Below, piece after piece: positions 13,097-41,349 of a stretch of 56,249 bases of DNA. The notes beneath the pieces were generated by a model. It saw only the letters and a list, made by a program, of their open reading frames with translations. It was not told where the DNA came from and made no database searches. Numbering within the stretch: the first letter of the stretch is position 1; each line of letters begins with the position of its first letter. The position numbers and the translations under genes were made by a program. The DNA is from Sporosalibacterium faouarense (GTDB lineage: Bacteria > Bacillota > Clostridia > Tissierellales > VENL01), in contig NZ_JAETGO010000047.1 in NCBI RefSeq assembly GCF_016765695.1, positions 1 through 56,249 on the forward strand, written 5' to 3'.

Positions 13097-13257
13097 AAAT
13101 TAAATTAAGCTAAACTTTTAAAAAAATTATCATAGAAAAAATTAATACTTATATACTTTGATATAAATAAAACTTATTAGATTAATACTCAAAACAATAA
13201 TATAATTATTAGGTGGTAGGTATAAAGTATAAAATAACGAGCTTTAGGAGGAATATA

Positions 13258-13893
13258 ATGAAAAAAACAGCAATCTTACTTATATCATTAGTGATAGTAG
13301 CAGCAACATTAATTGCTTGTTCTTCTGATAAAGATACTGGCAATAATAATTCAGCTGAAATGCTAAAAGTTAACAAAGAATCAAAAGAAGTGGAAATAGT
13401 AACAGAGGTTAATGCTAAATATTTTACGGAGCCAACAAGACATGGAATAGTATTTGAAGGTGGTTCAAATGGTGAAAAATCAGTTTTAAGAGGATTAGCT
13501 GATGAAAAGGAATTTTATCAAGCTTTAATAGATATTGGAGCACAAGCAGGTAATAACATTACTTTAGAGGACGTAGGAAGTGGAGAGAAGGTTGAAGGAG
13601 ATAAATTAGATGTAACTGTAACTTGGGAAGGATTAGGTAAGGAAATTCCTTTTAGTGATATAATCACTTCTAGTGATCCTAGACCAATGGATATTAGATT
13701 CGGTGGAAATCTTGAGAGGGCAAAGTCTAAAAATACCGGATGTGTTTTATGCCTTGATAGTTGTGCTGTAGGTATTACAAGTGATAATAGTTATGGCAGT
13801 GGAGAATCTGACACAGTTAAGTTTTATGGAAATAAAGAAGTTTTACCTGAAGATGGAACTAAAGTAACAGTAACGTTTAAGTTAGCTGAATAA
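13258..13893 (+). CDS. YdjY-domain lipoprotein
   Basis: A 211-residue exported protein. The signal peptide ends in lipobox LIAC, with lipidated Cys21. The rest matches the YdjY domain: NAKYFTEPTRHGIVFEGGSNGEKS is the family hallmark region, followed by GCVLCLDSC with Cys162, Cys165 and Cys169, suited to metal or Fe-S binding. Function is unknown. In E. coli ydjY sits between two TVP38/TMEM64 genes in the ydjXYZ-ynjABCDEF cluster, and the rest of that cluster lies about 6.6 kb downstream here. A GTG 45 bases upstream is in frame, but the ATG at 13258 follows AGGAGGAAT directly and starts a proper signal peptide. Confidence 0.85.
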   Translation: MKKTAILLISLVIVAATLIACSSDKDTGNNNSAEMLKVNKESKEVEIVTEVNAKYFTEPTRHGIVFEGGSNGEKSVLRGLADEKEFYQALIDIGAQAGNNITLEDVGSGEKVEGDKLDVTVTWEGLGKEIPFSDIITSSDPRPMDIRFGGNLERAKSKNTGCVLCLDSCAVGITSDNSYGSGESDTVKFYGNKEVLPEDGTKVTVTFKLAE

Positions 13894-19867: not shown

Positions 19868-20314
19868 ATGAAAAAAATTATTAGTTTATTACTTGTTGGA
19901 TTATTACTAATACCAGTAATGATGACAGCTTGTAGTCAAGGTGAAGAAACATCACAGGATGTGGAGTTTAAGTATTACAGTGCAGAGAAGGTAAAAGAAA
20001 GTATTGAAAATGATGAAGAATTTGATTTAGTGGATATACAAGTGCAAGAGGAATACGATGAGCACCATATTGCTGGAGCAATTGAAACTAATGCTTATCC
20101 TGTAAAAGAGGATACAGATAAAGCTAAGATTGATGCTATCTATTCTCAGCTTGAAGGGAAAGAAAACCCGATAGTAATAGTATGCCCACGTGGTGCAGGT
20201 GGTGCAGAAAGAACATATAAGTACTTATTAGAAAAAGGAATTAATGAAGATCGTTTATTCATACTTGAAGATGGTCAAGCTGGATGGCCATATGAAGATC
20301 TTTTAGCTAAATAG
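19868..20314 (+). CDS. Rhodanese-domain lipoprotein
   Basis: A 148-residue exported protein. The signal peptide ends in MTAC, with lipidated Cys22. A single rhodanese domain covers about residues 36-146. The sulfur-carrying Cys106 sits in the loop CPRGAGGA, and the conserved VDIQVQEEYDEHHIAGA entry motif is present. It would carry persulfide sulfur or act as a redox/anion-binding protein on the outer membrane face. It leads the cluster that resembles E. coli ydjXYZ-ynjABCDEF, where the rhodanese is YnjE (larger, multi-domain). GGGGG lies about 8 bases before the ATG. Confidence 0.9.
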   Translation: MKKIISLLLVGLLLIPVMMTACSQGEETSQDVEFKYYSAEKVKESIENDEEFDLVDIQVQEEYDEHHIAGAIETNAYPVKEDTDKAKIDAIYSQLEGKENPIVIVCPRGAGGAERTYKYLLEKGINEDRLFILEDGQAGWPYEDLLAK

Positions 20315-20323
20315 TCAATAATT

Positions 20324-20355
20324 GCCCTTTCTTATGTGGAAAGGGCTTATTTTTC
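20324..20355 (+). terminator. Hairpin (partial terminator) between rhodanese and first TVP38 gene
   Basis: GCCCTTTC pairs with GGAAAGGGC and is followed by TTATTTTT. The downstream gene starts 23 bases later with no clear new promoter, so this may reduce rather than stop downstream transcription. Confidence 0.65.
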
Positions 20356-20377
20356 ATAGACATGGAGGGTGTTGCTA

Positions 20378-21073
20378 ATGAATAAAATTAAAAAGTCAAC
20401 ATGGATAAAAATTGGAGTTTTAGCTGCCATAATTCTTGTATATTTCTTTGTTGAACCTGTTAATAGTACAGTAAAACAATTATTCGCCTTATTTAGTAAA
20501 ATGGATGTAAATGCAATAAAGGAATATATACTAGGCTTTGGTATATGGGCACCTGTAATATCTTTTTTTCTTATGGTTTTTCAATCTGTAGCAGCACCGT
20601 TACCAGCTTTTCTGATCACATTTGCAAATGCAGGCCTATTTGGATGGATAAAGGGTGCTATATTATCATGGGCTAGTGCAATGGCAGGAGCTACTTTATG
20701 CTTTTATATTGCTAAGCTTTATGGAAGAAAGACCGTTGAAAAATTGACTGGTAAATTTGCGTTAGATAATGTTGATAGTTTTTTTGACAGATATGGGAAT
20801 TATGCTATATTAATTGCAAGACTTCTTCCATTTATGTCATTTGATATAGTAAGCTATGCTGCTGGGTTGACATCTATGAGCTTTTGGTCCTTTTTCTGGG
20901 CTACTGGATTAGGTCAGCTTCCTGCAACATTAATTTATTCATATGTTGGAGGTATGTTAGTTGGTGGTGTTAAGAAATTTGTATTTGGATTATTATTATT
21001 ATTCTCATTGAGTATATTGATTTTCCTTATAAAAAAAGTGTGGAATGAGAAAAAAGCTAAACAGATAAATTAA
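20378..21073 (+). CDS. TVP38/TMEM64 family membrane protein (YdjX/YdjZ-like), copy 1
   Basis: A 231-residue polytopic membrane protein of the TVP38/TMEM64 (SNARE-associated, DedA-superfamily) type. Related proteins move lipids or ions across or between membrane leaflets. The signature region is present: FANAGLFGWIKGAILSW, then the reentrant segment ARLLPFMSFDIVSYAAGL. About six hydrophobic segments. GTG at 20369 is in frame, but it overlaps the GGAGGG ribosome site, so ATG 20378 is the start. It pairs with the second family member downstream, as ydjX and ydjZ do in E. coli. Confidence 0.9.
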   Translation: MNKIKKSTWIKIGVLAAIILVYFFVEPVNSTVKQLFALFSKMDVNAIKEYILGFGIWAPVISFFLMVFQSVAAPLPAFLITFANAGLFGWIKGAILSWASAMAGATLCFYIAKLYGRKTVEKLTGKFALDNVDSFFDRYGNYAILIARLLPFMSFDIVSYAAGLTSMSFWSFFWATGLGQLPATLIYSYVGGMLVGGVKKFVFGLLLLFSLSILIFLIKKVWNEKKAKQIN

Positions 21074-21101
21074 AAATAGTCAAATAAAGTGGTGGGATAA
21101 A

Positions 21102-22244
21102 ATGGAAAAGTCCAAGCTATCTAATAGTGCTATAGAAACAGTAAAAGATACTGAAAAAAATTGTATAGGATGTAAATTGTGTATGGAACATTGTCCTATG
21201 TTAAATAAGTTTTGTAGTTCTCCTAAGGAATTACTTAAGAATATTGTTAAAGGAGAAGAAGTTGACCCATCAATTCCATATTCATGTACTTTATGTAATT
21301 ATTGCAATGTAGTATGTCCTAATGATGTTAGTCTAAAAAATGCATTTTTAGATATGCGAAAGGATTTATTTTCAAGAGAAAAATCGAAAATAAAAGAGTT
21401 AGGATACAATACTGTGAAAAATCATCAAAAGAACAGCTTCTCCAAAATTTTCAGCACTAGTATTAAAGGATTTGAAGATGAAAAGGTTCATAGGAAAAGA
21501 AGTGTATTCTTTCCTGGTTGCAGTTTGTCTTCTTATAGTCCAGACATAGTTTTGAGAACTTATGATTATCTAAAAGAGAAGTTGCCTGAAGTAGGAATAA
21601 TGCAGAATTGTTGTGGAAAGCCAACATATTCCATGGGAGATATGGAGCAGTTTAAAGAATATAGCAAAAAACTAGAAAAGGAATTTTCAGATAATAATAT
21701 AGATGAAATAATTGTAGCCTGCCAAAACTGCTTTAAAACATTTGAGGTAAGTAGTAATGTTAAGGTTACATCTTTATGGGAGATAATATCGAATTATGGA
21801 ATACCAAATGAGGTGAGAGGTATTGGCAAAGGGATAGATTTATCATTTGCAATACATGATCCTTGTCCCACTAGATATGAAAGGATTATTCATGACTCTA
21901 TAAGAGATATAACTAATCAGTTGGGATTGAAAATTAAAGAAATGGAGTTTTCAAGAGAAAAAACTCTATGTTGTGGGTCTGGTGGTATGTTAAATGTGAC
22001 TAATAATTCTTTAGCACAAAGTCAGATGAAAAAAAGGGCTAATCAAGCAGATACAGACCATATATTAAGCTATTGTGAAGAGTGTGTGGAGTCAATGAAA
22101 AGAGGAGGAAAGCAATCTTTTCATATATTAGACTTACTTTTTAACACTCATATTTATTCTACTTTTACTCAAAAAGACCAAGGTACCATAAAAAAATGGA
22201 TAAATAGATATAAGAGCAAGCAGAAAATAAATAAAATTAAATAA
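21102..22244 (+). CDS. Fe-S oxidoreductase with two CCG (cysteine-rich) domains
   Basis: A 380-residue cytoplasmic protein. A two-cluster [4Fe-4S] ferredoxin module comes first: Cys21-24-27-31 and Cys62-65-68-72. Two CCG domains follow: FPGCSLSSY...NCCGKP, then HDPCPTRYE...LCCGSGG. The plan is that of HdrD/GlpC-like subunits, which pass electrons to thiols, disulfides or quinones. No flavin domain or membrane anchor is in the protein. It lies 28 bases after the first TVP38 gene, so it is in the same operon. E. coli's ydjXYZ-ynj cluster lacks this gene, so it may be the clostridial redox partner. Confidence 0.88.
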   Translation: MEKSKLSNSAIETVKDTEKNCIGCKLCMEHCPMLNKFCSSPKELLKNIVKGEEVDPSIPYSCTLCNYCNVVCPNDVSLKNAFLDMRKDLFSREKSKIKELGYNTVKNHQKNSFSKIFSTSIKGFEDEKVHRKRSVFFPGCSLSSYSPDIVLRTYDYLKEKLPEVGIMQNCCGKPTYSMGDMEQFKEYSKKLEKEFSDNNIDEIIVACQNCFKTFEVSSNVKVTSLWEIISNYGIPNEVRGIGKGIDLSFAIHDPCPTRYERIIHDSIRDITNQLGLKIKEMEFSREKTLCCGSGGMLNVTNNSLAQSQMKKRANQADTDHILSYCEECVESMKRGGKQSFHILDLLFNTHIYSTFTQKDQGTIKKWINRYKSKQKINKIK

Positions 22245-22347
22245 ATATAAAAACAGAGTAATATAATTTTGTGTTAGATTATATTTTCAGATAAGAATTG
22301 TTTAAATTAATTTTTTATTAGTATAAAAAGGGGGCGAAGGATAGATT

Positions 22348-23031
22348 ATGAATAAAAAAATCACAAAAACTAGTATAAAGGTTTTACTAATAGTTTTATT
22401 TGTTGGAATAGTTTATGTGTTAAATAAGATGAATGTATTTAAAGGTTTAAGCCCAGAAGATATTAAAGCTTATCTAGATTCCTTTGGATTACTAGCTCCA
22501 ATAGTTTATATCGTTATGTTTACATTTATTCCTTTAACTCTTTTTCCAGACTCGATACTTGCAATAGCTGGTGGTATGGGGTTTGGCTTAATTAAAGGAA
22601 GTATATTAACAATGATAGGAGCTTTACTTGGAGGCACATTATCCTTCTATATAACAAGACTCTTAGGAAAAGACTTTATAAAGCGGATTATTAAAAAAGA
22701 TATATCGTTTATAGGAGAGCAGTTAAAACAGAAAGGTTTTTTTATTATACTAATATTAAGATTAGTCCCTTTATTTCCTTTTGATGTAATAAGCTATAGT
22801 GCAGGTCTTTCAGATATTAAATATAGAGATTTTATTTCTGCTACCATTATTGGCACTATACCAGGAATCTTAGTTTATACAAATTTAGGAGACAAATCTA
22901 CTCAATTTGGTTCAATGGACTTCTATATTTCAGTTTTTCTATTATTGGCATTACTTTTAATATCGATGGTACTTAAAAAATATATAAGTATTGATAAAGT
23001 ACGAAGAAAATTAGATAATATTGAATCTTAA
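22348..23031 (+). CDS. TVP38/TMEM64 family membrane protein (YdjX/YdjZ-like), copy 2
   Basis: A 227-residue paralogue of the protein two genes upstream. FPDSILAIAGGMGFGLIKGS and LRLVPLFPFDVISYSAGLSD are the family hallmarks, at the same spacing as in copy 1. Sequence outside the motifs is clearly diverged, so this is an old duplication with separate roles rather than a recent copy. A GGGGGCGAAGG ribosome site precedes the ATG. Two members in one cluster match the E. coli ydjX/ydjZ arrangement. Confidence 0.9.
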   Translation: MNKKITKTSIKVLLIVLFVGIVYVLNKMNVFKGLSPEDIKAYLDSFGLLAPIVYIVMFTFIPLTLFPDSILAIAGGMGFGLIKGSILTMIGALLGGTLSFYITRLLGKDFIKRIIKKDISFIGEQLKQKGFFIILILRLVPLFPFDVISYSAGLSDIKYRDFISATIIGTIPGILVYTNLGDKSTQFGSMDFYISVFLLLALLLISMVLKKYISIDKVRRKLDNIES

Positions 23032-23158
23032 GAGATTAGAAAAATGGTATTTATGGATAAACTTTAGAAAATCATAAACTGAAATTTCATAAAGGTTATT
23101 TAATAATAGACTTAAAAATTATCTAGTTGATGATAAATTGCAGAGGAGATGAATAGTT

Positions 23159-24397
23159 GTGAAGAAAAAAATTGCAGTTATATTAGCTACAATGCTAGTT
23201 GCTTTAACCTTTGTTAGTTGCTCGCAAGACAATAAACAAGTGGACACTGTAAACTTACTAGATGAAGATTGGAATACAATTATTGAAAAAGCAAATGGCC
23301 AAACTGTTAATATGCATATGTGGGGTGGAGATGAAGCTGTTAATAAATATATAGACCAATGGGTATCACCTAAATTGAAATCTCAGTTTAACATAGTATT
23401 GAATCGTGTACCTATAAATGATGCAAAAGATATGATAAATAAATTATTAACAGAAAAACAGGTAGAAAAAGAAGAAGGCAGCATAGATATTTTTTGGATT
23501 AATGGTGAAAATTTTAAAAATGCAAAAGACAATGACTTATTATTGGGGTCATTTGTTAAAAAACTACCAAATTATAATATGTATATTGATAATGAAGCTG
23601 ATGATTTAAATTATGATTTTGGACAAGCTACAGAGGGCATGGAAGCTCCATGGGGAAAATCTCAATTTGTTTTTATATATGATTCTGAGAAAATTAAAAA
23701 TCCACCTACAACTATGGATGAATTAAAGAAATGGGTTAAAAATAATCCAGGAAAGTTCACATATCCTGCACCACCAGACTTCACTGGAAGCGCTTTTATA
23801 CGTAATGGTATTATAGAAGTCACTAGTGGATATGAATCATATATGGAAGATATGGACCAAGAGTCTCTTTTAAGCAAAATAAGTCCATTTTGGGAATATT
23901 TAAATGAAATAAAACCATATCTATGGAGAGAAGGCAAAACATATCCTGAAAGCTCAGGGAAATTAGATCAAATGTATAGTAATGGAGAAGTTTGGATGAC
24001 TATGTCATATAATCCTGTTCACGCAGCTAATAGAATAAAAGAAGGACAATTTCCACAGTCTACTAAAACTTTTGTACTTGAAGAAGGGACCTTATCTAAT
24101 ACACATTATTTAAGCATTCCTTATAATAGTGTAAATAGAGCAGGAGCGTTAGTTGCTATTAATTTCATGCTATCACCAGAAGCTCAGATAGCTAAATTTA
24201 ATCCTAATAATTGGGGAGATGGCCTAGTAATATCTACAGAAAAGTTAAATGAAGAAGATAAGGCAGGGTTAGAATCAATTGATAGAGGTGATGCAACCTT
24301 ATCTCCACAAGAATTGCAGATTCATAGAATACCTGAAATGCCTTCAAAGTATGTAGATACAATTGAAAAGGATTGGCTAGAGAATGTTGCAAAATAG
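23159..24397 (+). CDS. YnjB-like ABC transporter substrate-binding lipoprotein
   Basis: A 412-residue extracellular solute-binding protein. The signal peptide ends in lipobox FVSC, with lipidated Cys21. The MHMWGGDEAVNKYIDQWV and DIFWINGENF stretches are typical of the YnjB group. The ligand is not known; the fold is that of polyamine/iron/sugar-type class I binding proteins. The start is GTG after GAGGAGA. Its last 14 bases overlap the first permease gene, indicating coupled translation. It is the entry point of the transporter in the ynj-like cluster. Confidence 0.85.
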   Translation: MKKKIAVILATMLVALTFVSCSQDNKQVDTVNLLDEDWNTIIEKANGQTVNMHMWGGDEAVNKYIDQWVSPKLKSQFNIVLNRVPINDAKDMINKLLTEKQVEKEEGSIDIFWINGENFKNAKDNDLLLGSFVKKLPNYNMYIDNEADDLNYDFGQATEGMEAPWGKSQFVFIYDSEKIKNPPTTMDELKKWVKNNPGKFTYPAPPDFTGSAFIRNGIIEVTSGYESYMEDMDQESLLSKISPFWEYLNEIKPYLWREGKTYPESSGKLDQMYSNGEVWMTMSYNPVHAANRIKEGQFPQSTKTFVLEEGTLSNTHYLSIPYNSVNRAGALVAINFMLSPEAQIAKFNPNNWGDGLVISTEKLNEEDKAGLESIDRGDATLSPQELQIHRIPEMPSKYVDTIEKDWLENVAK

Positions 24398-25259
24398 AAA
24401 ACCATATTTACTAATATTACCTTCTTTATTAGCTACAGTTTTCTTATTTATTGGAGGAATATTATATGGAATTTTTGAGAGTATCGGTTTTTCGCCTCTT
24501 GTAGGTGAAAAACAGGTCACTCTTAAGTATTATCTAGAGATTTTTAATAGTGATGATTTTTGGCAAGCCTTTTTTACTACAATACGTATTGCATCTCTAT
24601 CGACAATATTTTCAGTTATTTTGGGAGTATTAATCATTTATTTTTTATATATAATGAAGGTTAATAAAAAAAATCAATCAGCTATATTAGCCCAAAGATT
24701 ATTTCAAGTTCCTATGCTTTTTCCATATTTAGTTTTTTCTTATATAGTATATATTATTTTTTCATCTACTGGATGGTGTTCGAGAATTTTATATGGCTTA
24801 GGTATTATTGATTCAATGGATAATTTTCCTATTATGATAAATGATAGATTTGGATGGGGAATTATAATCGCATATGTATGGAAGACAAGTCCTTTTGTAG
24901 TACTTATGCTTTATCCTGTCTTATTAAAGGTCCCATTATCACTAATAGATGCAGCTAAGGTCTTTGGAGCTAATAAATTTACAGCTTTCAAGGAAGTTGT
25001 TTTTCCTCTCTTAATTAGTCCTTTAAAATTATCTGCATTTATAGTATTTTCCTATTCATTTCTTGCCTTCGAAGTACCGTATATATTGGGAGTCACTTAT
25101 CCAAAAACTCTATCGGTATATTCATATCTAACATATACAACTGGTAATCTATCGGAACGGCCCAAGGCAATGGCTATAAATATAGCTTCTACTTTTTGTG
25201 TTATAGTAATAGGACTGATATTTTATTTACTAAAGAAAGGAGAAGGTAATGAAGGATAA
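24384..25259 (+). CDS. ABC transporter permease (first half of a YnjC-type permease)
   Basis: A 291-residue permease with six membrane helices of the binding-protein-dependent transport family. The cytoplasmic EAA-like loop that docks the ATPase is seen as DAAKVFGANKFTAFKEVVFPLL. It overlaps the binding-protein gene by 14 bases and the next permease by 11. In E. coli YnjC is one double-length protein; here the two halves are separate genes. Confidence 0.88.
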   Translation: MLQNRKPYLLILPSLLATVFLFIGGILYGIFESIGFSPLVGEKQVTLKYYLEIFNSDDFWQAFFTTIRIASLSTIFSVILGVLIIYFLYIMKVNKKNQSAILAQRLFQVPMLFPYLVFSYIVYIIFSSTGWCSRILYGLGIIDSMDNFPIMINDRFGWGIIIAYVWKTSPFVVLMLYPVLLKVPLSLIDAAKVFGANKFTAFKEVVFPLLISPLKLSAFIVFSYSFLAFEVPYILGVTYPKTLSVYSYLTYTTGNLSERPKAMAINIASTFCVIVIGLIFYLLKKGEGNEG

Positions 25260-26055
25260 GACTACAAATGGAGTTATATTAATAGGAATTATATTTATTG
25301 CTTTAATAAGCATATTACCCTTTGTTTTTCTATCTATATTGAGCTTTTCTCAAGGATGGGCATGGCCTAAAATATTACCGAATTCTCTAAGTCTTGGAGC
25401 ATGGAAATATGTATTTGCGCCTACCTCTGGCACTATAAATGCCATTTTCACCAGTTTGAAGGTGGCTATTGTAGTAACTATTATTAATCTAGTATTAGCT
25501 ATACCTGCAGGGGATGCCCTTGGTAGATATAAATTTAAAGGAAAGAAAATAATAGAAGCTATTTTACTAATGCCAATAATAATCCCGCCGATTATAATAA
25601 TGATGGGGATGCATAAAACCTTTATAGTATTTAATCTTACAGAATCTACTCTAGGAGTTATTTTATGTCATATAGTTCCGACACTACCTTATATGATTAG
25701 GGCAGTAACAATAAGCTATAATCAACTAGGCTTTAAATGGGAAGAGCAAGGTAAAATGCTTGGAGCTGGAAAAATAGATCGTTTTTTTAACATAGTTTTT
25801 CCTTTCTTAATTCCTGGAATTGTGGCGGGATCGAGTTTATCTATAGTGATATCATTGAGTCAATACATTATTACAGTTCTAATGGGTGGTGGTCAAGTAG
25901 TTACTTTGCCTATGATTATGTTTCCCTTTATAAATGGAGGGAATCAGGGGATAGGGGCAGCTTACTCTATTTTATTTGCTTTAATAGCTGTTATAGCATT
26001 AATTGCTATGGACTTATTACTTAAAAGATATTATAATGATAGGAAAATTAATTAA
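25249..26055 (+). CDS. ABC transporter permease (second half of a YnjC-type permease)
   Basis: A 268-residue six-helix permease. The docking loop reads EQGKMLGAGKIDRFFNIVFPFL. Its ATG lies inside the end of the preceding permease gene with AGAAGG upstream, so the two are translated together and probably form the membrane heterodimer. The substrate is unknown. Confidence 0.88.
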   Translation: MKDKTTNGVILIGIIFIALISILPFVFLSILSFSQGWAWPKILPNSLSLGAWKYVFAPTSGTINAIFTSLKVAIVVTIINLVLAIPAGDALGRYKFKGKKIIEAILLMPIIIPPIIIMMGMHKTFIVFNLTESTLGVILCHIVPTLPYMIRAVTISYNQLGFKWEEQGKMLGAGKIDRFFNIVFPFLIPGIVAGSSLSIVISLSQYIITVLMGGGQVVTLPMIMFPFINGGNQGIGAAYSILFALIAVIALIAMDLLLKRYYNDRKIN

Positions 26056-26111
26056 TATTAAAAGACAAACCTGAATTATGAAAACCTTTGATTAAGAAAG
26101 GAATAATATTG

Positions 26112-27245
26112 ATGACAAAATTATGTTTAGAAGGAATCGAAAAGTCATATATAAAGAATAATAGCTCTAAGAATAAAAGTGAAGATGATTTTAGAATACA
26201 GATTGACGAATTATTAATTAATGAAGGAGAATTTTTTGGAATAGTGGGGCCTTCGGGATGTGGCAAAACAACGCTTTTAAAAATAGTAGCTGGATTACAA
26301 GAAATTAATAAAGGAGAAGTAATAATTGATGGTAATAACATTACTAAAATTTCTGCTGAAAATAGAAACATTAGTATGGTTTTCCAACAGCCACTGTTAT
26401 TTCCACATATGACAGTAGAAGAAAATGTTACATTTGGATTGAAGATGAAAAAGATAGATAAAACTGAAAGGAAGAAAAGAGCAAAACAAATATTAGAAAG
26501 TGTTGGTTTAAATGGATATCTATATAGATATCCATCGGAATTAAGTGGAGGTCAAAAGCAAAGAGTTGCCATAGCAAGAGCTATAGCATATAAGCCAGAA
26601 GTATTACTAATGGATGAACCTTTTAGTTCTTTAGACCCTGCCTTGAGAGAAGATATGAGAAATTTAATTCTAAAGCTTCACAGTAAATATAAAATGACTA
26701 CGATCTTTGTTACCCATGATAGGGAGGATGCATTTACTCTTTTTGATCGCATGGCAATAATGAGAGGTGGAGAAATACTTCAAATAGGGTCGCCTAAAGA
26801 AATTTATGAAAATCCTTTGACTAAGTATATTGCAGGATTTATGGGATACAAGAATATTTTTCAAGGTCATATAAATGTAAATGAATTTGTAGGAAAAAAT
26901 GTGAAATTTAAGTTACCTAATCAAAATTATTTAAAAAATAAGTCAATCTATGGATATATAGTAATCCCTTCGGAAAGTCTAGAGGTTAATCTTGTAGAAA
27001 AAAACAATCAAAACATAAAAAAAATGCATCAAATAGAAAGTAAGGATTATTATGCTTTTCTTGGTATTTTAGAGGAGGTTAATTACAATCAAGGCTTACT
27101 CTATTTAAAGATAAAATATAATTCAGAAGAAATATTTATTACTCAAAAAAATAAATTTAGCGAAGATTTGAAAATAGGACAAAATATTTTAGTAGAATAT
27201 ATGCCTGAAAAAATACATTTTATTGAAAAGAAGGTTAGGGGGTAA
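26112..27245 (+). CDS. ABC transporter ATPase (YnjD-like)
   Basis: A 377-residue ATPase with all motifs: Walker A GPSGCGKTT, Q-loop FQQ, signature LSGGQKQRVAIARA, Walker B VLLMDEP and switch His in VTHDREDA. The C-terminal 130 residues resemble the TOBE-type regulatory extension of importers such as PotA/MalK. A TTG 24 bases upstream is in frame, but ATG 26112 has AAGAAAGGAA at proper spacing. It powers the two permeases just upstream. Confidence 0.9.
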   Translation: MTKLCLEGIEKSYIKNNSSKNKSEDDFRIQIDELLINEGEFFGIVGPSGCGKTTLLKIVAGLQEINKGEVIIDGNNITKISAENRNISMVFQQPLLFPHMTVEENVTFGLKMKKIDKTERKKRAKQILESVGLNGYLYRYPSELSGGQKQRVAIARAIAYKPEVLLMDEPFSSLDPALREDMRNLILKLHSKYKMTTIFVTHDREDAFTLFDRMAIMRGGEILQIGSPKEIYENPLTKYIAGFMGYKNIFQGHINVNEFVGKNVKFKLPNQNYLKNKSIYGYIVIPSESLEVNLVEKNNQNIKKMHQIESKDYYAFLGILEEVNYNQGLLYLKIKYNSEEIFITQKNKFSEDLKIGQNILVEYMPEKIHFIEKKVRG

Positions 27246-27248
27246 AGT

Positions 27249-27851
27249 ATGCTAGATACACATGCAAGAAGATATGTAAGTCCAGTCATAAGAATAATTG
27301 CAAAGGCATTTTTGAAATACAATATCAGTGCTAATCAAATTACAATATTAGCTTTTTTAATAGGTGTTTTAACAGGTCCTCTTATTTATTTTGATTTCCC
27401 TATTTTAGCATGTATTTTTTTATGGATTTCTGGATTATTAGACGCAGTAGATGGAGCAGTGGCTAGAATGAAAAAAAATATAACAGCTTGGGGAACCCTT
27501 ATGGATATAACTTTTGATAGAATAGTAGAATTAGCTGTTATTATTGGACTAGCTTTTAAATATACTAATATAAGAATAGAGCTTTTAATGTTAACATCTG
27601 CCATAATATTTTCAATGACGATCTTTCTCACAGTAGGGGCATTAACAGAAAAAAAAGGAGAAAAATCATTTTATTATCAAGCAGGAGTGGCTGAAAGGAC
27701 AGAAGGATTTATATTACTTAGTATCATGATTTTATTTAATAATTTGATAGTTTGGAGCACCATCATATTTACTATTCTTGTGACTATAACAGCTTTTCAG
27801 AGAATGATAGAAGCAAAAAGAATATTTGATACAATAGATAAAAATAAGTAA
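27249..27851 (+). CDS. CDP-alcohol phosphatidyltransferase (YnjF-like)
   Basis: A 200-residue integral membrane enzyme of about six helices. The full CDP-alcohol phosphotransferase motif is present: D65-x2-D68-G-x2-A-R73-x8-G82-x3-D86-x3-D90. The family joins an alcohol to a CDP-activated donor, for example in making phosphatidylglycerol or phosphatidylinositol; the substrate here is unknown. It starts 3 bases after the ATPase gene and closes the cluster, as ynjF does in E. coli. An importer next to a phosphatidyltransferase suggests, as inference only, that the imported solute is a lipid head-group precursor. Confidence 0.9.
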   Translation: MLDTHARRYVSPVIRIIAKAFLKYNISANQITILAFLIGVLTGPLIYFDFPILACIFLWISGLLDAVDGAVARMKKNITAWGTLMDITFDRIVELAVIIGLAFKYTNIRIELLMLTSAIIFSMTIFLTVGALTEKKGEKSFYYQAGVAERTEGFILLSIMILFNNLIVWSTIIFTILVTITAFQRMIEAKRIFDTIDKNK

Positions 27852-28030: not shown

Positions 28031-28696
28031 ATGGATTATATCTCAAATAAAATAGAAACTTTAATTACGAAGATTATTAGTTTATATGAAAAGCATTTAG
28101 ATATTGATAAAAGTCAAATATCAATAGTAAAATATTCCTTACGACTGGTAATTAGCACAATTATTGGCTATTTGTTGGCACTAGTATGTGCATACTTTTT
28201 AGGTACTTTTAGTTATGTTCTAACAATTATGATTACTATATCTATATATAGATCCTTTTCAGGAGGTGCCCATTGCAGTAGCATGATAAATTGTGCAGTA
28301 TATGGTATGATTATAATAAACCTATTGGGATTATTAGTCTCTAAAACGATCTTACCTAATCAAGGTATTATTTTAGTACTTTGCTTTCTAGCATTTTTAT
28401 TTGCAATTTGGACAATAAATAAATATGCTCCTGCTGATACACCCGGTAAACCTATAGAATCTAAGGTAAAAAAAGTTAAGTTGAGAAAAAGGTCTTTTTT
28501 AATAATATGTATCTGGTATGGGAGTACTATAGCTTGGCATTTTATCTTTAAGGAGATGCATCAGATTATTTATATTTCAGCAATAGGAATAATCTGGCAA
28601 TCATTTACCCTTACTCCAATTGGATATAAGTTTTGTCATATCTGGGATATGGCATTAAATAAAATATTCTTTATAAAGGGGGATATGTATGCTTAA
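28031..28696 (+). CDS. agrB: AgrB-type peptide-processing membrane protease
   Basis: A 221-residue membrane protein of the AgrB family. The catalytic His81 lies in SGGAHC and Cys88 is exactly 7 residues on, the spacing of the AgrB cysteine-protease dyad. YAPADTPGKPI is the family's second hallmark. It cuts the C-terminal part of AgrD and closes the peptide ring. GAAAGGGAG lies upstream of the ATG. agrD overlaps its end by 8 bases. The C-terminus beyond the core is typical of clostridial members. Confidence 0.95.
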   Translation: MDYISNKIETLITKIISLYEKHLDIDKSQISIVKYSLRLVISTIIGYLLALVCAYFLGTFSYVLTIMITISIYRSFSGGAHCSSMINCAVYGMIIINLLGLLVSKTILPNQGIILVLCFLAFLFAIWTINKYAPADTPGKPIESKVKKVKLRKRSFLIICIWYGSTIAWHFIFKEMHQIIYISAIGIIWQSFTLTPIGYKFCHIWDMALNKIFFIKGDMYA

Positions 28697-28817
28697 AAAA
28701 ATGCTACAACTATCAGTGGTTTTTTTTACACTAATCGCCTTTGCTAACGTGGCAGCTGCCACAAGCGTAATTGCCTATCAACCAGAATTGCCAGAAGAAT
28801 TAAAAGACATCGAGTAG
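28689..28817 (+). CDS. agrD: AgrD-type cyclic autoinducer precursor, cysteine-free
   Basis: A 42-residue peptide starting inside the end of agrB, with GGGGGATAT as ribosome site. It has the AgrD layout: a short basic, then hydrophobic amphipathic N-terminus, the segment ANVAAATSVIA, and the charged recognition tail YQPELPEELKDIE. Staphylococcal and clostridial AgrD normally have a Cys whose thiol closes the ring. This peptide has no Cys at all. The ring would have to be a lactone through Ser or Thr in TSVIA. The exact ring residues are uncertain. Confidence 0.88.
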   Translation: MLKKMLQLSVVFFTLIAFANVAAATSVIAYQPELPEELKDIE

Positions 28818-28848
28818 ATAGTAAAAGACTCTTTGAGTCTTTTACTAT
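28818..28848 (+). terminator. Strong hairpin just after agrD
   Basis: A perfect 14-base stem (ATAGTAAAAGACTC with GAGTCTTTTACTAT, 3-base loop) begins at the agrD stop codon. It lacks a T-run after the stem. It may act as a partial terminator or mRNA-stabilising end that keeps agrBD output above that of the downstream sensor genes. Confidence 0.6.
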
Positions 28849-28880
28849 GATCACAAGTTTATATAAAAGGATGTGAAACT

Positions 28881-29372
28881 ATGTTGGTAATTATAGAGAA
28901 ACTTATAATATTTTTCATAGAACCTTTTTTAATGATAGGAGCTGGGCTTGGTGTAACTGGAAATGGAATTAGCAAAGGAAAAATGGCATCAATATCAGCG
29001 ATTTATTCATTACTTACTTATGGAATAAGAACATTTTATAAAATGCGCGGAATACCACTCGGGACTCATACAATAATATTATGTATTAGTTTAGTTATAA
29101 TGTTAATACTTATAGGAAAGAAAAAGGCATTGGATAGCACTATTGCTGTATTATTTAGTCTAGGACTAATAGTACTAGGAGAAGGAGTATTTCTCTTTCC
29201 ATTGATAGATTTATTACATATAAATCTTGCAGTAGTTTTAGGGAAGCCTGGAATGACCATAGGATTAGGACTTATGTCTGAAATACCTTTAATAATAGCT
29301 TTTATTCTATGTTACATTTTTAAAATTACTATAATCGATTTAAACTATTTTAAAGAAGCCAAAAGAATGTAG
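28881..29372 (+). CDS. Membrane protein of the agr locus, possibly a detached sensor domain
   Basis: A 163-residue protein with five predicted membrane helices and almost no soluble part. I do not recognise it as a named family. It sits between agrD and the histidine kinase and is 8 bases from the kinase gene. AgrC sensors normally have a six- or seven-helix N-terminal sensing domain; the adjacent kinase has only two helices. The simplest reading is that the peptide-sensing domain is encoded as a separate subunit. AAAGGATGTG precedes the ATG. Confidence 0.7.
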   Translation: MLVIIEKLIIFFIEPFLMIGAGLGVTGNGISKGKMASISAIYSLLTYGIRTFYKMRGIPLGTHTIILCISLVIMLILIGKKKALDSTIAVLFSLGLIVLGEGVFLFPLIDLLHINLAVVLGKPGMTIGLGLMSEIPLIIAFILCYIFKITIIDLNYFKEAKRM

Positions 29373-29380
29373 GTGTATCA

Positions 29381-30253
29381 ATGAAACTTGATTCTAAAGC
29401 ATATATATTAGTTATAGCAATATTGGCTCAAAATGTTGTAGTATTATTATTAGCTAACAAGACCTTTGTTAGCTTTTTAGACCAAACCATAGATGCATAT
29501 AGATATCCTCTATTTGTAGCAATATTTATAAATATATTAGGTTTTATTGGAGTTATATCCGTACATTATATAATAAAATTTCTAAAAAAAGAAAAGGATT
29601 TTATACTAAAATTAAATGATTCAAAGGGTATAATTGATGCTCTTCAAGGACAAAAACATGATTTTAATAATCATCTTAATGTTGTGGCTGGACTTTTACA
29701 AATAGGAAAAGATAAGCAAGCTTTAGAATATATTTTTAAGATATCAGGAAAGGTAGAAGAGGTATTTTCTATATCTAAAATTAAAAATGTGGAGATTGCC
29801 GCTACTTTATATAGAAAATGTGCAATTGCAGAGAGCAAAGGAATAGAAGTAGACCTTTATATAGATTCAAATTTAGAATACATTAAAATTGCTCCAATAG
29901 ATATATGTAAAATACTTTTTAATTTGATTGATAATGCTATATATGAACTTGATAACTGTAGAGATGAAGTAAGAGTTTTGACATTAGATATTAATGAAGT
30001 AGATGATAAATATAGGATAAGTATAGGAAATTCATATCCAGTACTATCTCCCGATTTATATAAAAAAGTTTTTGATAGAGGTTTTTCTACAAAAGGAGCG
30101 GGTAGTGGGCATGGATATGGATTAGGTATCGTAAAAAGTATAGTGGAGAAAAATAAGGGAATAATTTACGTGGAGAGTTTTGAAAATGTAGGAACAGTAT
30201 TTACTATAGAATTACCCATGAATGTAAGGTTAAGAGAAGCAGAAGCTCAATAG
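29381..30253 (+). CDS. AgrC-like histidine kinase (GHKL type) with short membrane part
   Basis: A 290-residue kinase. Two membrane helices (about 8-26 and 43-65) are followed by the phospho-acceptor region KHDFNNHLNVVAGLL and a GHKL ATP-binding domain with NLIDNAIYEL (N box), STKGAGSGHGYGLGI (G boxes) and VGTVFTIELP. The DFNNHL motif is that of peptide-sensing AgrC/CitA-type kinases. No response regulator gene follows; the next operon is the V-type ATPase. The partner regulator must be elsewhere. Probably co-transcribed with the preceding membrane protein. Confidence 0.88.
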   Translation: MKLDSKAYILVIAILAQNVVVLLLANKTFVSFLDQTIDAYRYPLFVAIFINILGFIGVISVHYIIKFLKKEKDFILKLNDSKGIIDALQGQKHDFNNHLNVVAGLLQIGKDKQALEYIFKISGKVEEVFSISKIKNVEIAATLYRKCAIAESKGIEVDLYIDSNLEYIKIAPIDICKILFNLIDNAIYELDNCRDEVRVLTLDINEVDDKYRISIGNSYPVLSPDLYKKVFDRGFSTKGAGSGHGYGLGIVKSIVEKNKGIIYVESFENVGTVFTIELPMNVRLREAEAQ

Positions 30254-30460: not shown

Positions 30461-30784
30461 ATGGATAAGATAATAAAAAAAATAGTAGCCATTGATGAAC
30501 AAGCCTTAAGTATTAAGAAAAAGACCGATAAAATTATTCAGAATAATAAAAAAAATCTTAAAAAGGAATTGGATAAAATACAAGAAGAAATGGTTAAAAA
30601 TGCAAAGGATGAAGCGGAAAGCAAGTATGCAGAAATAATATCTAAAGGAGAGAGAAATTCTGAGGATATAACTACACAGGGGAACGAAAAATATAAAAAA
30701 ATTGAAGATATGTATGAAAGAAAAAAGCCTAAATTACAGAATATGATATTTGATAAAATCTTTAAAGAAAGCAATAACCATTAA
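30461..30784 (+). CDS. V-type ATP synthase subunit G/H (peripheral stalk)
   Basis: A 107-residue, highly charged helical protein, almost entirely heptad-like Lys/Glu coiled coil. It matches the small stalk subunit (AtpH/NtpF type) that pairs with subunit E. Assignment rests on composition, size and place as first gene of a full V-type operon, since this subunit is poorly conserved. AGAGGTG precedes the ATG. Confidence 0.75.
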   Translation: MDKIIKKIVAIDEQALSIKKKTDKIIQNNKKNLKKELDKIQEEMVKNAKDEAESKYAEIISKGERNSEDITTQGNEKYKKIEDMYERKKPKLQNMIFDKIFKESNNH

Positions 30785-30824
30785 TGGGTTATAATCATTC
30801 TATATACTCTAGGGAGTGGATAAA

Positions 30825-31892
30825 ATGGGAATGGGAAGTGTGAAAGATTTTGCAGCCATAAACACTAAAATAAGAGCTTTAAAAGGTAAGATGCTTGATG
30901 AAAAGGATTATTTAAAGCTTATATCAAAAAAATCCGTACCTGAAATAGCTGAATATTTAAAGAACAATACATATTACACTGACGTTTTAAAGGACGAAGA
31001 TATAAAAAATATTCATAGAAATAGGTTGGAGCTATTATTTAAAAAACATATTATAATACAATTTGAAAAGATACTTCATCACTTTACAGGTGAGTATAGA
31101 AAGCTTTTTAAAATTTTATTTATGAGATATGAGATAGAAGATTTAAAATTATATATAAGGGCATTATCTAGGGGAGAAAGTTTAGAAGAAGTAAAAAAAC
31201 TGGTCTTATATTCAGGGATTTACAGTTCTATAGACCATGATTTATTAATAACTTCTAAAAGTATAAGCGAATTTGTTAGAAATCTTAAGGGTACTATTTA
31301 TTATGATGGACTAAAGGGTTATCAAGATGAACAGGGAAGTAAATTGACTTTCTATTTAGAAATGAATCTAGATATATTATACTTTACTAAATTGTATGAA
31401 CAAGCAGGTAGTTTAGATAAGAAGAATGAAAAAATCCTTAAGGAGCTTTTGGGGAAAAATATTGATTTATTAAATTTAGAATGGATATATAGAGGGATAA
31501 AATTTTATAAGTTATCACCTGAAGAATTAATTAACTATACTCTGAATGGTGGGTATTCATTAAGCTTTAATGATATAAAAAATCTTTGTTACTCTAAGGA
31601 TGAAAAGGAACTAATAGAAAGAATGATTAATTCACAATATGGATTTTTATTTGATAATGAAGACACTCTCGACTTATTTATGGAAAGAAGAATTGAGAGA
31701 TATCTTTATTTTCAATTTTTAGGGTATTATAGAAAGGAAAGAATGAATATAACTCAATCAATTGCGTATATTCATTTATTAGAATATGAAATTCGGGATA
31801 TTATTTCTATAACTGAAGCTATAAGATATGACTTAGATAAAAGTCAAGTAAAGAGCTATCTAGTTCGGAAAATAGAAGGAAGTGATTTATAG
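30825..31892 (+). CDS. V-type ATP synthase subunit C
   Basis: A 355-residue helical protein of the AC39/NtpC family, which links the central shaft to the membrane rotor ring. RYEIEDLKLYIRAL, a family hallmark, is present, and the C-terminal ISITEAIRYDL repeats it. GTG at 30816 is in frame but lies within the AGGGAG ribosome site, so ATG 30825 is taken. The stop abuts the start of subunit I with no gap. Confidence 0.88.
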   Translation: MGMGSVKDFAAINTKIRALKGKMLDEKDYLKLISKKSVPEIAEYLKNNTYYTDVLKDEDIKNIHRNRLELLFKKHIIIQFEKILHHFTGEYRKLFKILFMRYEIEDLKLYIRALSRGESLEEVKKLVLYSGIYSSIDHDLLITSKSISEFVRNLKGTIYYDGLKGYQDEQGSKLTFYLEMNLDILYFTKLYEQAGSLDKKNEKILKELLGKNIDLLNLEWIYRGIKFYKLSPEELINYTLNGGYSLSFNDIKNLCYSKDEKELIERMINSQYGFLFDNEDTLDLFMERRIERYLYFQFLGYYRKERMNITQSIAYIHLLEYEIRDIISITEAIRYDLDKSQVKSYLVRKIEGSDL

Positions 31893-33857
31893 ATGGCTAT
31901 AGAACAGATGGTAGTAATGAATGTGGTGGGGTTAAAAGACTCTGTCGATAATGTGGCAAGAGAAATAGTACTGATGGAAAACGTCGATATTATCAATGCT
32001 TTAAATGAGATAAATGAAAGTCATTTTACCTTAACTATTGAAGAAGAAAATGTTGAAGAAATTGTTGATATGTCACTAATAAAGCCGATGTCAGATGATG
32101 TTAGCTATGAAGATACATTTAAGAAAATTGATGATTTGAGTAATGTCTATGAGGAGAATTTTAAAGTTAATAAAAACTATTTAGATGAATCCTTTGATTA
32201 TAAGCTATGTTCAGATAATGTTGATAGTTTATACGACAAACTAATAGCACCCTATGAGAAAATAATGGAATTGAAGGAAGAAAAGAAGAAGATAGAAGAA
32301 TTTTATAGGAACTTCATGTACATAAAGGATTTAGATGTAGAGGTAGAGACATTTAAGAATTTAAATTATTTCACTTATACTTTTGGAATATTATCTAAAG
32401 AAAATGTTAAAAAGCTTAAGCGGAATTATGAGAATATTACAGCAATTGTATTGCATACTGGAACTAGTAAATCAGGTGAGGTGTATCTAGTTATTTCGCC
32501 TAAGGAAATGGAATTAGAAACTAATCGAATATTGAGATCGTTAAATTTTAATAAGATAGAAATGAAAATGAATTTCACAGGTACTCCTATGGAAATAGTG
32601 AAAAAATTAGAATCAAGAAACCAAGAAATAGACGAAAAATTATCTGAATTAAATAATAAATTTAATCAATTAAAGAGTCAATGTAAAGCATTAGTAGAAG
32701 AATGTTATAGCAAATTGGCCCTTCAATCTAAAATAAAAGAAGTTAAAAATCAAATGGTTTCAAGTAATAATTTTTTCTATTTATCTGGATGGATTCCTAA
32801 GAAGAATGAAAAAGAAATAATGGAAAGACTAGATCAGTTCGGAAATTTAATTATAGTGTTTAAAGGTGAGGAAGAATTTGAAGAGGGATTTAGTCCACCT
32901 ACTAAGCTTAGAAATAATAAACTATTTAGTCCATTTGAATATCTTGTAAAGATGTATGGAATTCCATCTTACAATGAAATAGATCCGACGGTATTTTTAA
33001 GTATAACATATATGTTCTTGTTTGGAGCAATGTTTGGAGATGTTGGTCAGGGATTAATACTTTTTATTGGAGGATTACTTTCAAGGACAAAGTCAGAATT
33101 ATTTGGGAATATACTTAGTAGATTAGGTATTAGCTCTATGGTATTTGGGTTATTGTATGGAAGTGTATTTGGGTTTGAGCACATTATTAATCCTGTGCTA
33201 ATAAGTCCTTCGTTTGAGGATTTTGATAGTATAAATATTATTTTGATAAGTGCAGTTGTAATAGGAGTTGTACTATTACTTATAAGTTATGTTTATAGTA
33301 TTATAAACGCTATAAAGCGAAAAGATTTAAAAGAAGGTCTTTTTGGAAGAAATGGTGTAGTTGGGTTAGTGTTTTATATTCTCCTACTTATACTAGTTGG
33401 CGGTAAAGTCAATAATGCTGAGATTATACCTACTATAGTCATAGTTTCTGTACTTATTGTACTAATTGGACTAATGGTGGTAAGAGAGCCTCTGTCAAAC
33501 TTAATATTAGGAAAGAAGCCCCTTTATCACGAAACTATTTCTAGCTATTATATTGAAAGTGGCTTTGATATTTTAGAGACATTGCTTAATATGTTGAGTA
33601 GTACAGTTTCATTTATAAGAGTTGGAGCTTTTACATTAACCCATGTGGGGTTATTTGTAGCATTTGAAATAATAGCTCATCTATTGGGAAGTTTTACTGG
33701 TAGTTTAATTACTTATATCATAGCAAATATAATAGTTATAGGATTAGAAGGCTTAATAGTGTTTATTCAAGGCTTAAGACTAGAATATTATGAGCTTTTC
33801 AGCAAATATTATAAGGGAGAAGGTGTAGAGTTTAGTCCTATAAAATTAAATGATTAA
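31893..33857 (+). CDS. V-type ATP synthase subunit I (a-subunit)
   Basis: A 654-residue protein. The N-terminal half is a soluble coiled-coil stator region. The C-terminal half (about 360-640) has about seven membrane helices and forms the ion half-channels. FGAMFGDVGQGL and FIRVGAFTLTHVGLF contain the conserved charged residues, including the key channel Arg in FIRVGAF. Length is normal. It starts one base after the subunit C stop. Confidence 0.93.
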   Translation: MAIEQMVVMNVVGLKDSVDNVAREIVLMENVDIINALNEINESHFTLTIEEENVEEIVDMSLIKPMSDDVSYEDTFKKIDDLSNVYEENFKVNKNYLDESFDYKLCSDNVDSLYDKLIAPYEKIMELKEEKKKIEEFYRNFMYIKDLDVEVETFKNLNYFTYTFGILSKENVKKLKRNYENITAIVLHTGTSKSGEVYLVISPKEMELETNRILRSLNFNKIEMKMNFTGTPMEIVKKLESRNQEIDEKLSELNNKFNQLKSQCKALVEECYSKLALQSKIKEVKNQMVSSNNFFYLSGWIPKKNEKEIMERLDQFGNLIIVFKGEEEFEEGFSPPTKLRNNKLFSPFEYLVKMYGIPSYNEIDPTVFLSITYMFLFGAMFGDVGQGLILFIGGLLSRTKSELFGNILSRLGISSMVFGLLYGSVFGFEHIINPVLISPSFEDFDSINIILISAVVIGVVLLLISYVYSIINAIKRKDLKEGLFGRNGVVGLVFYILLLILVGGKVNNAEIIPTIVIVSVLIVLIGLMVVREPLSNLILGKKPLYHETISSYYIESGFDILETLLNMLSSTVSFIRVGAFTLTHVGLFVAFEIIAHLLGSFTGSLITYIIANIIVIGLEGLIVFIQGLRLEYYELFSKYYKGEGVEFSPIKLND

Positions 33858-33924
33858 AAAAAATAGAAAGATAGTATCAAATTAAATTATTAACTTTAAG
33901 TTTCAATTTTTAAGGAGGTATAAC

Positions 33925-34353
33925 ATGACATTAATTATGATAACAACAAGCATTATGGTATTAATGACAATTTCATCAGGTATGTTTCTAATGTATAAGG
34001 AATATAAAACTACTAAAAGCAGGCTTAAAAAAGTTTTAAAATATAATTTGTTTACATTTATTCCGCTACTTATAGGAGCTTTAGTGTTATTAGCTCCTAA
34101 AATCACCTTTGCCGTTTCTAATGGAATGGCACCTACAGATGGAAGTGGACTTGGTTATATTGCAGCTGCATTATCAACTGGTTTGGCAACTATAGGAGCT
34201 GGTTATGCCGTAGGAGCAGTGGGAGCATCAGCATTAGGGGCAGTTTCTGAAGATCCTAAAATATTAGGTAAAACCTTAATATTTGTTGGTCTAGCCGAAG
34301 GTATTGCTATCTATGGTTTAATAGTTTCAATATTAATAATCAGTAGATTGTAG
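33925..34353 (+). CDS. V-type ATP synthase subunit K (rotor c-subunit) with N-terminal extension
   Basis: A 142-residue proteolipid. The C-terminal two-helix hairpin (about 75-140) is the c-subunit proper, with Gly/Ala-rich packing and the ion-binding Glu in GLAEGIAIYG. The loop SEDPKILG faces the stalk. The first 60 residues add two hydrophobic segments and a basic stretch (KSRLKKVLK), ending TFAVSNG, which could be a processed leader or extra helices. AAGGAGG precedes the ATG. The Glu is not followed by Ser/Thr, so a Na+ site is not evident, but coupling ion cannot be fixed from this. Confidence 0.88.
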   Translation: MTLIMITTSIMVLMTISSGMFLMYKEYKTTKSRLKKVLKYNLFTFIPLLIGALVLLAPKITFAVSNGMAPTDGSGLGYIAAALSTGLATIGAGYAVGAVGASALGAVSEDPKILGKTLIFVGLAEGIAIYGLIVSILIISRL

Positions 34354-41212: not shown

Positions 41213-41255
41213 ATAAATCTGTTAGCAATAAAATATCTTTTTAAAAAACAAGTTT

Positions 41256-41349
41256 GGAGAGATGGCTGAGTCTGGCTGAAGGCGCTCGCCTGGAAAGCGG
41301 GTAGACGGCTATAACCGTCTCGGGGGTTCAAATCCCCCTCTCTCCGCCA
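41256..41349 (+). tRNA. tRNA-Ser (anticodon GGA)
   Basis: A class II tRNA of 94 bases with encoded CCA. Acceptor stem GGAGAGA/TCTCTCC with discriminator G. The anticodon loop CTGGAAA gives GGA, reading TCC and TCT. The long variable arm is GTAGACGGCTATAACCGTCTC. The discriminator G matches the C of the serS T-box TGGC. It is transcribed with the SRP RNA 11 bases downstream. Confidence 0.95.

Follow-up and report, generated by a model that had tools for sequence, protein, structure and literature searches.

A clostridial ydj-ynj gene cluster in Sporosalibacterium faouarense and its possible place in a make-or-import membrane system

What holds together genes as unlike as those for a rhodanese, two TVP38/TMEM64 membrane proteins, an Fe-S protein, an ATP-binding cassette (ABC) importer, and a CDP-alcohol phosphotransferase? 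The question is raised by nine co-directional open reading frames (ORFs), all on the + strand, at positions 19868-27851 of a 56,249-nucleotide stretch of Sporosalibacterium faouarense (contig NZ_JAETGO010000047.1; the whole stretch is called the window here), which together resemble the ydjXYZ-ynjABCDEF genes of Escherichia coli. A first-pass annotation had described this co-directional order, and the families called in the window with Pfam and NCBIfam match those it named, nine in number as in its list and not eight as in its text; its description of the locus as the clostridial form of this E. coli set is likewise borne out by comparison of families and genes. It had also stated that no joint function is known, and none is assigned to the E. 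coli ydj and ynj genes in the literature found on the gene names, the gene families, and TIGR04282/04283, a limited collection.

The cluster is almost certainly a real and widely shared functional unit. The best account of what it does, to which we give a probability of roughly 0.4 when taken whole, is that the nine genes and a separately placed YdjY-W gene pair may form one membrane system, present here in an 'import' form, with joining of a solute to lipid and with sulfur or selenium chemistry. The interpretation offered by the first-pass annotation, import and redox or sulfur processing of a lipid head-group-like solute, is partly supported: import of such a solute is a possible reading, and the neighbors in related genomes point to sulfur or selenium at least as strongly as to lipids.

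Conservation of the cluster

Linkage was followed in 54 YnjB loci, comprising the window, 4 plasmid records, 48 other genome loci, and E. coli, and in a phylum sample of 299 genomes, 26 with YnjB over its cut-off and 273 others (loci and genomes carry L and G labels, G000 being the window's genome). Thirteen of the 54 loci are related, of Bacillus/Neobacillus type, and are included in the counts. The 26 YnjB genomes are the window's own and 20 entered in the 54-locus table, together with three whose loci were examined outside it, L116 (G216), L118 (G148), and L117 (on another contig of G083), and two that were left out (G166 and G265). Loci L063, L065, L066, and L067 stop within or shortly past the cluster.

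Six-frame searches find TVP38 in 45/54 YnjB loci and YnjF in 42/54 (41 by called genes), a linkage beyond chance of the kind that the first-pass annotation had proposed looking for. By called genes, 44/54 have TVP38 no farther than 10 kb from YnjB (the caller misread ydjX and ynjD of E. coli and overlooked some genes in other loci), and about 3% would be expected per random 20 kb at the density of the window genome (6 copies), a figure that is only indicative since the loci are related by descent. Flippase-like PF03706 proteins and YdjY are each present in 17/54 by the same searches (YdjY in 14 by called genes), a dicluster or flavin oxidoreductase in 28/54, and a rhodanese in 19/54 by called genes, using a profile seeded with a rhodanese-VTT fusion and dropping the rhodanese label where VTT scored higher. 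YnjF was not found in 12/54, some of which are cut by contig ends, and the YnjA label was assigned in two of the 54, one of them E. coli.

Gene fusions (rhodanese-VTT, TVP38/FAD-oxidoreductase, and W-TVP38) link the components to one another. In Ilyobacter (L007) VTT is fused with two rhodanese domains, and Salmonella and Pseudoalteromonas plasmid records have annotated TVP38/FAD-oxidoreductase fusions beside ynjB; these proteobacterial fusions represent the same two partners next to YnjB, although they carry a flavin reductase, fused to TVP38, whereas the redox partner in the window is an Fe-S protein. The Salmonella IncC plasmid (L099) codes for the annotated fusion, a FAD oxidoreductase, and ynjB, followed by a gene annotated as hypothetical and then by IS26 and resistance genes.

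Comparison with E. coli

The E. coli K-12 genes are organized as ydjX-ydjY-ydjZ-ynjA-ynjB-ynjC-ynjD-ynjE, with ynjF on the opposite strand, and a search against E. coli at the DNA level gave no match. At the level of families, the two share two TVP38 genes, YdjY, YnjB, a permease, an ATPase, a rhodanese, and a CDP-alcohol phosphotransferase, and all of these except YdjY lie together in the window. The differences are several: the E. coli rhodanese is ynjE, annotated as a molybdopterin synthase sulfurtransferase, whereas the window has a short rhodanese at the front; the gene between the TVP38 genes codes for an Fe-S dicluster protein in the window and for YdjY in E. coli; the permease is split between two genes in place of the single 1,536-base ynjC; YnjF is co-directional; and YdjY is outside the operon, about 6 kb off with W. 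YnjA was not found in the cluster, with no YnjA-like (AhpD-like) ORF called at window positions 9001-34500.

A table of the FNR regulon lists ydjXYZ-ynjABCD as one operon, and ynjE is described as directly FNR activated (PMC3688515), so that the separate regulation by which the first-pass annotation would have judged the genes unrelated is not seen in E. coli. A genetic-interaction screen places ynjABCDEFI in a group with sufCDS (PMC3930520), and among the DedA proteins of E. coli, YdjX and YdjZ are described as the nearest to human Tmem41b (PMC7818093). Two other reports record a modest effect of BaeR on ynjA (1.6) and ynjB (1.4) (PMC2731931) and values of about -5 for both ynjE and ydjY in a table for a LysR regulator (PMC9068703); neither is used as evidence here.

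Exchange of YnjBCD and YnjF for radical-SAM and transferase genes

The new observation is that a shared module of TVP38, YdjY, flippase-like, and C-GCAxxG proteins pairs either with YnjBCD and YnjF or with TIGR04282/TIGR04283 'arsenosugar-type' transferases. The comparison set is the 13 genomes with TIGR04283 and without YnjB over its cut-off, and the regions were inspected in all 13. TVP38 is present in 10, flippase-like proteins in 8, C-GCAxxG in 7, rhodanese in 6, and YdjY in 5, so these clusters, some of which also have W, hold partners partly in common with the ydj-ynj module. They differ from it in two respects: a radical-SAM gene is nearby in 10/13 but in 1/54 YnjB loci (Fisher p 1.2e-8), where the single case is a weak match of 36 bits in L069, and YnjF is found in 0/13 but in 42/54 YnjB loci (Fisher p 2e-7).

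The ten radical-SAM calls rest on Pfam matches over cut-off in six loci and in L120, on an ArsS match in L119 (418.5 bits, cut-off 300), and on phmmer similarity in L126 and L132, the latter in two pieces. YdjY occurs with TVP38, flippase-like, C-GCAxxG, and TIGR04282/04283 genes in L119 to L121; in L122 it lies beside TIGR04282/04283 and W, with no TVP38 on that stretch, and the genes of this genome (G080) are spread over two contigs (L122 and L132). The exceptions are G024 and G235, in which a flavin oxidoreductase is the sole partner gene near TIGR04283, and G286, which has none.

A related exchange is seen within the YnjB loci themselves. An APH kinase, TIGR04282, or nucleoside hydrolase gene is present in 7/12 loci lacking YnjF and in 0/42 with it (p 4e-6), the seven spanning at most six genera. 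A two-seed TIGR04283 model also matches L083, which has YnjF (50.9 bits), and the protein is taken as a general glycosyltransferase because G268 is absent from the 17 genomes found by the curated TIGR04283 model; counting it as TIGR04283 gives 1/42 versus 7/12 (p 3e-5). The TIGR04282 protein additionally gives a CofC-like Pfam match, and kinase, nucleotidyltransferase-like TIGR04282, and glycosyltransferase on the one hand and YnjF on the other look like two ways of activating or attaching one kind of molecule.

The Fe-S dicluster protein

The Fe-S protein between the TVP38 genes had been regarded as an addition to the E. coli set, and this is contradicted by its distribution. It aligns with NF045663 (disulfide-oxidoreductase/dicluster) at 267.5 bits over model positions 304-662 of 759; it shares the Fe-S dicluster and CCG half of these proteins but lacks the flavin half and falls below the 530-bit cut-off, and it is not counted as a member. 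In the phylum sample, with three candidates scored per genome, such that some genes may be missed, a low-scoring subgroup that includes the window's type is present in 20/299 genomes and a high-scoring one in 17/299. The low-scoring subgroup is found in 18/26 YnjB genomes versus 2/273 others, at 0.8-7.6 kb from ynjB in the 14 genomes with both on one contig and on separate contigs in the other 4; high-scoring members are found in 0/26.

The two halves of NF045663 also meet beside ynjB. In L071, L072, and L073 a single protein encoded no more than 7 kb from ynjB combines the dicluster and flavin oxidoreductase halves; in Marinisporobacter (L041) the dicluster and the flavin oxidoreductase are encoded by separate, adjoining genes that precede ynjB. 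The CCG and CxxC cysteines are retained in both CCG stretches. The combination of 4Fe-4S motifs and a double CCG is, we take it, that of heterodisulfide-reductase-type subunits, and because of this layout the reduction of disulfides or persulfides is proposed as the likeliest activity.

Regions around 8 of the 17 high-scoring NF045663 genes (L106-L111, L114, and L115) gave no YnjB, YnjF, or permease label. There the gene adjoins one for a protein of about 900-970 residues. Proteins some 440-470 residues long and a C-GCAxxG gene are often present as well, and the whole is a distinct conserved cluster.

YdjY and its partner W

The YdjY lipoprotein upstream of the cluster, also reported by the first-pass annotation, is real and well over its family cut-off (Table 1), and its gene is the sole copy found in the 4.12-Mb window genome. 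It ends about 6 kb before the cluster, and because W and five other ORFs intervene, one of them on the opposite strand, YdjY is placed outside the cluster operon. Nine aligned YdjY sequences have invariant cysteine columns, with a conserved stretch TGC-x2-C-x3-C-x2-GITS; the predicted fold (pLDDT 78.5) gave no usable match (best Z 5.7), although the lack of a match is not proof that the fold is new.

W has no Pfam or NCBIfam match, but a profile built up from it picks out a relative close to YdjY in 18/21 YdjY loci, the exceptions being L008, E. coli (L089), and L121, and in 11 of the 18, of Bacillus type, W is in one reading frame with TVP38. The YdjY-W pair of the window is thus a member of the module by family and a separate transcription unit. 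Across the phylum sample YdjY is present in eight genomes, of which two have YnjB over its cut-off, both within 10 kb of YdjY, five have TIGR04283 (one YdjY match, in G132, is partial at 56.4 bits), and one has a broken, weak YnjB. The YdjY frame is broken in L052, L053, and L059, where the neighboring genes are called normally, and decay or sequencing error is possible.

Sulfur and selenium signs in relatives

In 8/54 YnjB loci a LysR-type gene lies near the cluster and runs in the opposite direction to it. Eight regulators were tested, seven of the nine LysR-like proteins of YnjB loci and one from L122, and LysR_Sec_metab is the best match for all eight, with five (four from YnjB loci and that of L122) passing its 250-bit cut-off; this subfamily has been linked to selenium-using organisms (PMC5322559). 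YedE/TsuA-like halves are present in seven loci and a TusA-like protein in six, all with the dicluster protein, and one of each was family tested.

All 13 Bacillus/Neobacillus-type loci (L049, L050, and L052-L062) have a PrdB-like gene just upstream of ynjB (e.g., L055 7988-8776) in which the same codon is an in-frame UGA and YICHQSVGLIQ comes next, the full stretch being NPG-U-YICHQSVGLIQ. The one protein tested, with TGA read as C, scores 178.1 bits, below the TIGR04483 cut-off of 300, and the gene perhaps codes for a distinct reductase. SelB is over its cut-off in all 12 searchable genomes of these loci, and the window's genome has SelB as well. These selenium-linked neighbors hint at sulfur or selenium chemistry, and for such a role of the ydj-ynj system the odds seem about even.

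A make-or-import membrane system

Because one gene set stands in for the other next to a common group of partners, a pathway in which one product is either made or imported is the best reading, and one that we consider evenly balanced between right and wrong. In the import form, YnjB, the two permeases, and YnjD would take up a sugar- or nucleoside-like organic solute, and YnjF, from its family and motif, would join it to a CDP-activated lipid or alcohol; attachment to lipid is somewhat less secure than the make-or-import reading and falls a little short of an even chance. Other bacteria would make a comparable product themselves with the radical-SAM enzyme and the TIGR04282/TIGR04283 transferases, at times with a kinase and a nucleoside hydrolase. 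The shared part of the module would then handle the product at the membrane, with the TVP38 proteins, together with W or the PF03706 flippase-like protein, moving it across. Inside the cell, thiol/disulfide or persulfide reducing power would come from the Hdr-like Fe-S protein, or in other loci from a flavin disulfide oxidoreductase, and the rhodanese and YdjY lipoproteins, judged by domains and lipoboxes, would act outside. Sulfur or selenium chemistry is suggested because relatives have the selenium-linked regulators and the PrdB-like gene with its in-frame UGA.

Several observations weigh against this reading. It draws on gene sets only, and outside the Firmicutes these come from E. coli and a few plasmid records. 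The two sets are not wholly exclusive, with TIGR04283 also in 4/26 YnjB genomes and near ynjB in three, and the Fisher values ignore relatedness and are to be discounted accordingly. In the window genome, which is 97% complete, there is no TIGR04283 match at E 1e-45 and no ArsS (TIGR04167) over its cut-off (best 59 bits versus 300). TVP38 was not seen in 9/54 YnjB loci within the stretch covered, and two Rhodobacterales plasmids have YnjF-YnjB-YnjC-YnjD only, because of which the core may be the importer with YnjF and the redox part optional. YdjY, for which the first-pass annotation had expected co-occurrence, goes only weakly with YnjB in the phylum sample (2/26 versus 6/273, p 0.15). As for selenium, the cluster in the window yielded no gene of selenium or arsenosugar type, the LysR_Sec_metab gene of the window's genome is on another contig, and the hairpin expected after the PrdB-like UGA is present but does not outdo shuffled sequences (z -0.36 to -1.37, four sequences).

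A bolder form of the make-or-import reading, speculative and rather unlikely, is that the product is an unrecognized lipid-borne redox carrier with a sugar-like, sulfur- or selenium-handling head group, made in the cell or imported through YnjBCD and loaded on lipid by YnjF. TVP38, W, and the flippase-like protein would flip this carrier between the cytoplasmic Hdr or flavin reductase and the rhodanese and YdjY outside, and if this were true, the orphan ydjXYZ-ynjABCDEF genes of E. coli would be a scavenging version. The annotation gives no role to eight of these (ydjX, ydjY, ydjZ, ynjA, ynjB, ynjC, ynjD, and ynjF), which include two DedA-family genes and an ABC importer. That YnjBCD-YnjF gives way to radical-SAM and TIGR04282/04283 genes while the membrane partners stay offers a concrete handle on their role and could also give a function to bacterial TVP38/TMEM64 proteins.

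YnjB ligand, YnjF acceptor, and alternative explanations

The predicted YnjB model (pLDDT 88.5) resembles sugar, UgpB, and dinucleotide binders at Z 25.3-27.5 among the 50 matches listed, with mixed ligands, and the fold does not favor any one of them. The best that a search of solved structures returned was two polyamine binders at E 0.001. Invariant tryptophans and the loops WGG and WxNGENF would suit a sugar- or ring-like ligand. The Sec-assisted organometallic (SAO) ABC system was rejected as an identity for the importer, the ATPase scoring 190.4 bits versus the SaoA cut-off of 360.

The alternative that survives best, though we think it unlikely, is uptake and trafficking of sulfur or selenium and nothing else: YnjBCD would import an organic sulfur or selenium compound, the Fe-S or flavin protein would reduce it, the rhodanese and TusA-like protein would carry the chalcogen, and YnjF would be a bystander or do general lipid work. 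It accommodates the regulators, YedE/TsuA halves, TusA-like proteins, and UGA-containing PrdB-like gene of relatives, the phrase 'near Sec' in the name of the dicluster family NF045663, and the E. coli suf interactions in the genetic screen (PMC3930520). It leaves unexplained why YnjF is among the most constant partners of YnjB and is retained on the two Rhodobacterales plasmids, whose annotation shows neither TVP38 nor a rhodanese close by.

Those plasmids, with YnjF alone beside YnjBCD, instead favor a lipid pathway proper, in which an imported head-group-like solute would be attached by YnjF to CDP-diacylglycerol, while the TVP38 proteins would serve as lipid scramblases and the head group would be modified through the redox genes. 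The motif DxxDGxxAR...GxxxDxxxD is retained in 41/41 called YnjF homologues, window included (31/41 for a stricter pattern), the closest families are inositol-phosphate-type synthases, and the resemblance of YnjB to UgpB and sugar binders, among others, is compatible. YnjF is, however, under the AIP-synthase cut-off (NF040950, 113.9 versus 180 bits) and that of NF045883 (67.3 versus 170 bits), its acceptor is therefore unassigned, and TVP38, rhodanese, and YdjY also occur in the TIGR04283 clusters that lack YnjF, making the lipid pathway by itself distinctly unlikely.

Detoxification of an organometal or metalloid such as arsenic or mercury, with disulfide-reductase flavoproteins, TVP38, and arsenosugar-type genes, is improbable. 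It would fit Pyr_redox proteins beside ynjB with what we label a mercuric-reductase layout, the ArsS of one YdjY cluster (L119), an ArsS-like protein in L126 (357 bits to the L119 ArsS), an ArsS-like DUF3641 protein in L128 (DUF3641 being, we presume, linked to ArsS), and a truncated copy that lies next to DUF692/DoxX genes on an IncC plasmid. ArsS is nevertheless over its cut-off in 1/16 genomes tested (the L126 and L128 genomes were not among these), and the E. coli operon is listed in the FNR regulon table (PMC3688515). That the locus is simply an importer of thiamine or polyamines whose neighbors are unrelated is very improbable, as the matches to thiamine and polyamine subunits are weak and below curated cut-offs (YnjB to TIGR01254, 21.8 versus 93.4 bits; the ATPase to NF006987 PotA, 302.0 versus 482 bits) and the neighboring genes are conserved.

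Organization of the cluster and its surroundings

The features are collected in Table 1. Successive genes at 19868-27851 are separated by gaps of 54, 28, 103, and 127 bases, overlap by 14 and 11 bases, and are then separated by 32 and 3 bases; because the intergenic gaps are short, 20369-27851 reads as an operon, from which the hairpin listed may set the rhodanese gene apart.

Table 1. Features of the ydj-ynj cluster and the YdjY-W pair (window positions)
Feature	Position	Strand	Basis
YdjY-domain lipoprotein	13252..13893 (ORF from 13213)	+	NF040466 163.9 bits, cut-off 50
W, small membrane protein, 132 residues	13957..14355	+	Directly 3' of YdjY gene
Rhodanese-domain lipoprotein	19868..20314	+	PF00581 42.4 bits; lipobox MTAC and loop CPRGAGG, both judged by eye
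Terminator-like hairpin at boundary of rhodanese gene and the rest	20324..20346	+	Weak: 7 such sites in region versus 3.9 expected
TVP38/TMEM64 (VTT) membrane protein 1	20369..21073	+	PF09335 97.7 bits
Hdr/GlpC-like Fe-S protein, 380 residues	21102..22244	+	Fer4_8, two 4Fe-4S motifs, two CCG stretches
TVP38/TMEM64 (VTT) membrane protein 2	22348..23031	+	PF09335 104.3 bits
YnjB solute-binding lipoprotein	23159..24397	+	NF008633 519.7 bits, over curated cut-off of 203
Permease 1, assigned by order as first half of YnjC	24384..25259	+	BPD_transp_1 PF00528 49.7 bits
Permease 2, assigned by order as second half of YnjC	25249..26055	+	PF00528 46.5 bits
YnjD-type ATPase	26088..27245	+	ABC_tran PF00005 132.5 bits; later ATG start also possible
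YnjF CDP-alcohol phosphotransferase	27249..27851	+	CDP-OH_P_transf PF01066 49.8 bits; motif DxxDGxxAR-x7to9-GxxxDxxxD

Rfam at its gathering threshold gives no family match within 12-28 kb of the window. Directly 3' of the cluster, at 28031-30253, are genes like those for an agr-type processing protein and a histidine kinase, followed at 30461-34353 by genes for V/A-type ATPase-like subunits, all judged by eye. An ARAGORN tmRNA call at 41253-41741 looks spurious, as Rfam gives a tRNA-Ser followed by a bacterial large SRP RNA (41362-41626). The window also has a T-box leader at 5983-6181 (140 bits) and a c-di-GMP-I riboswitch at 53162-53243 (70 bits).

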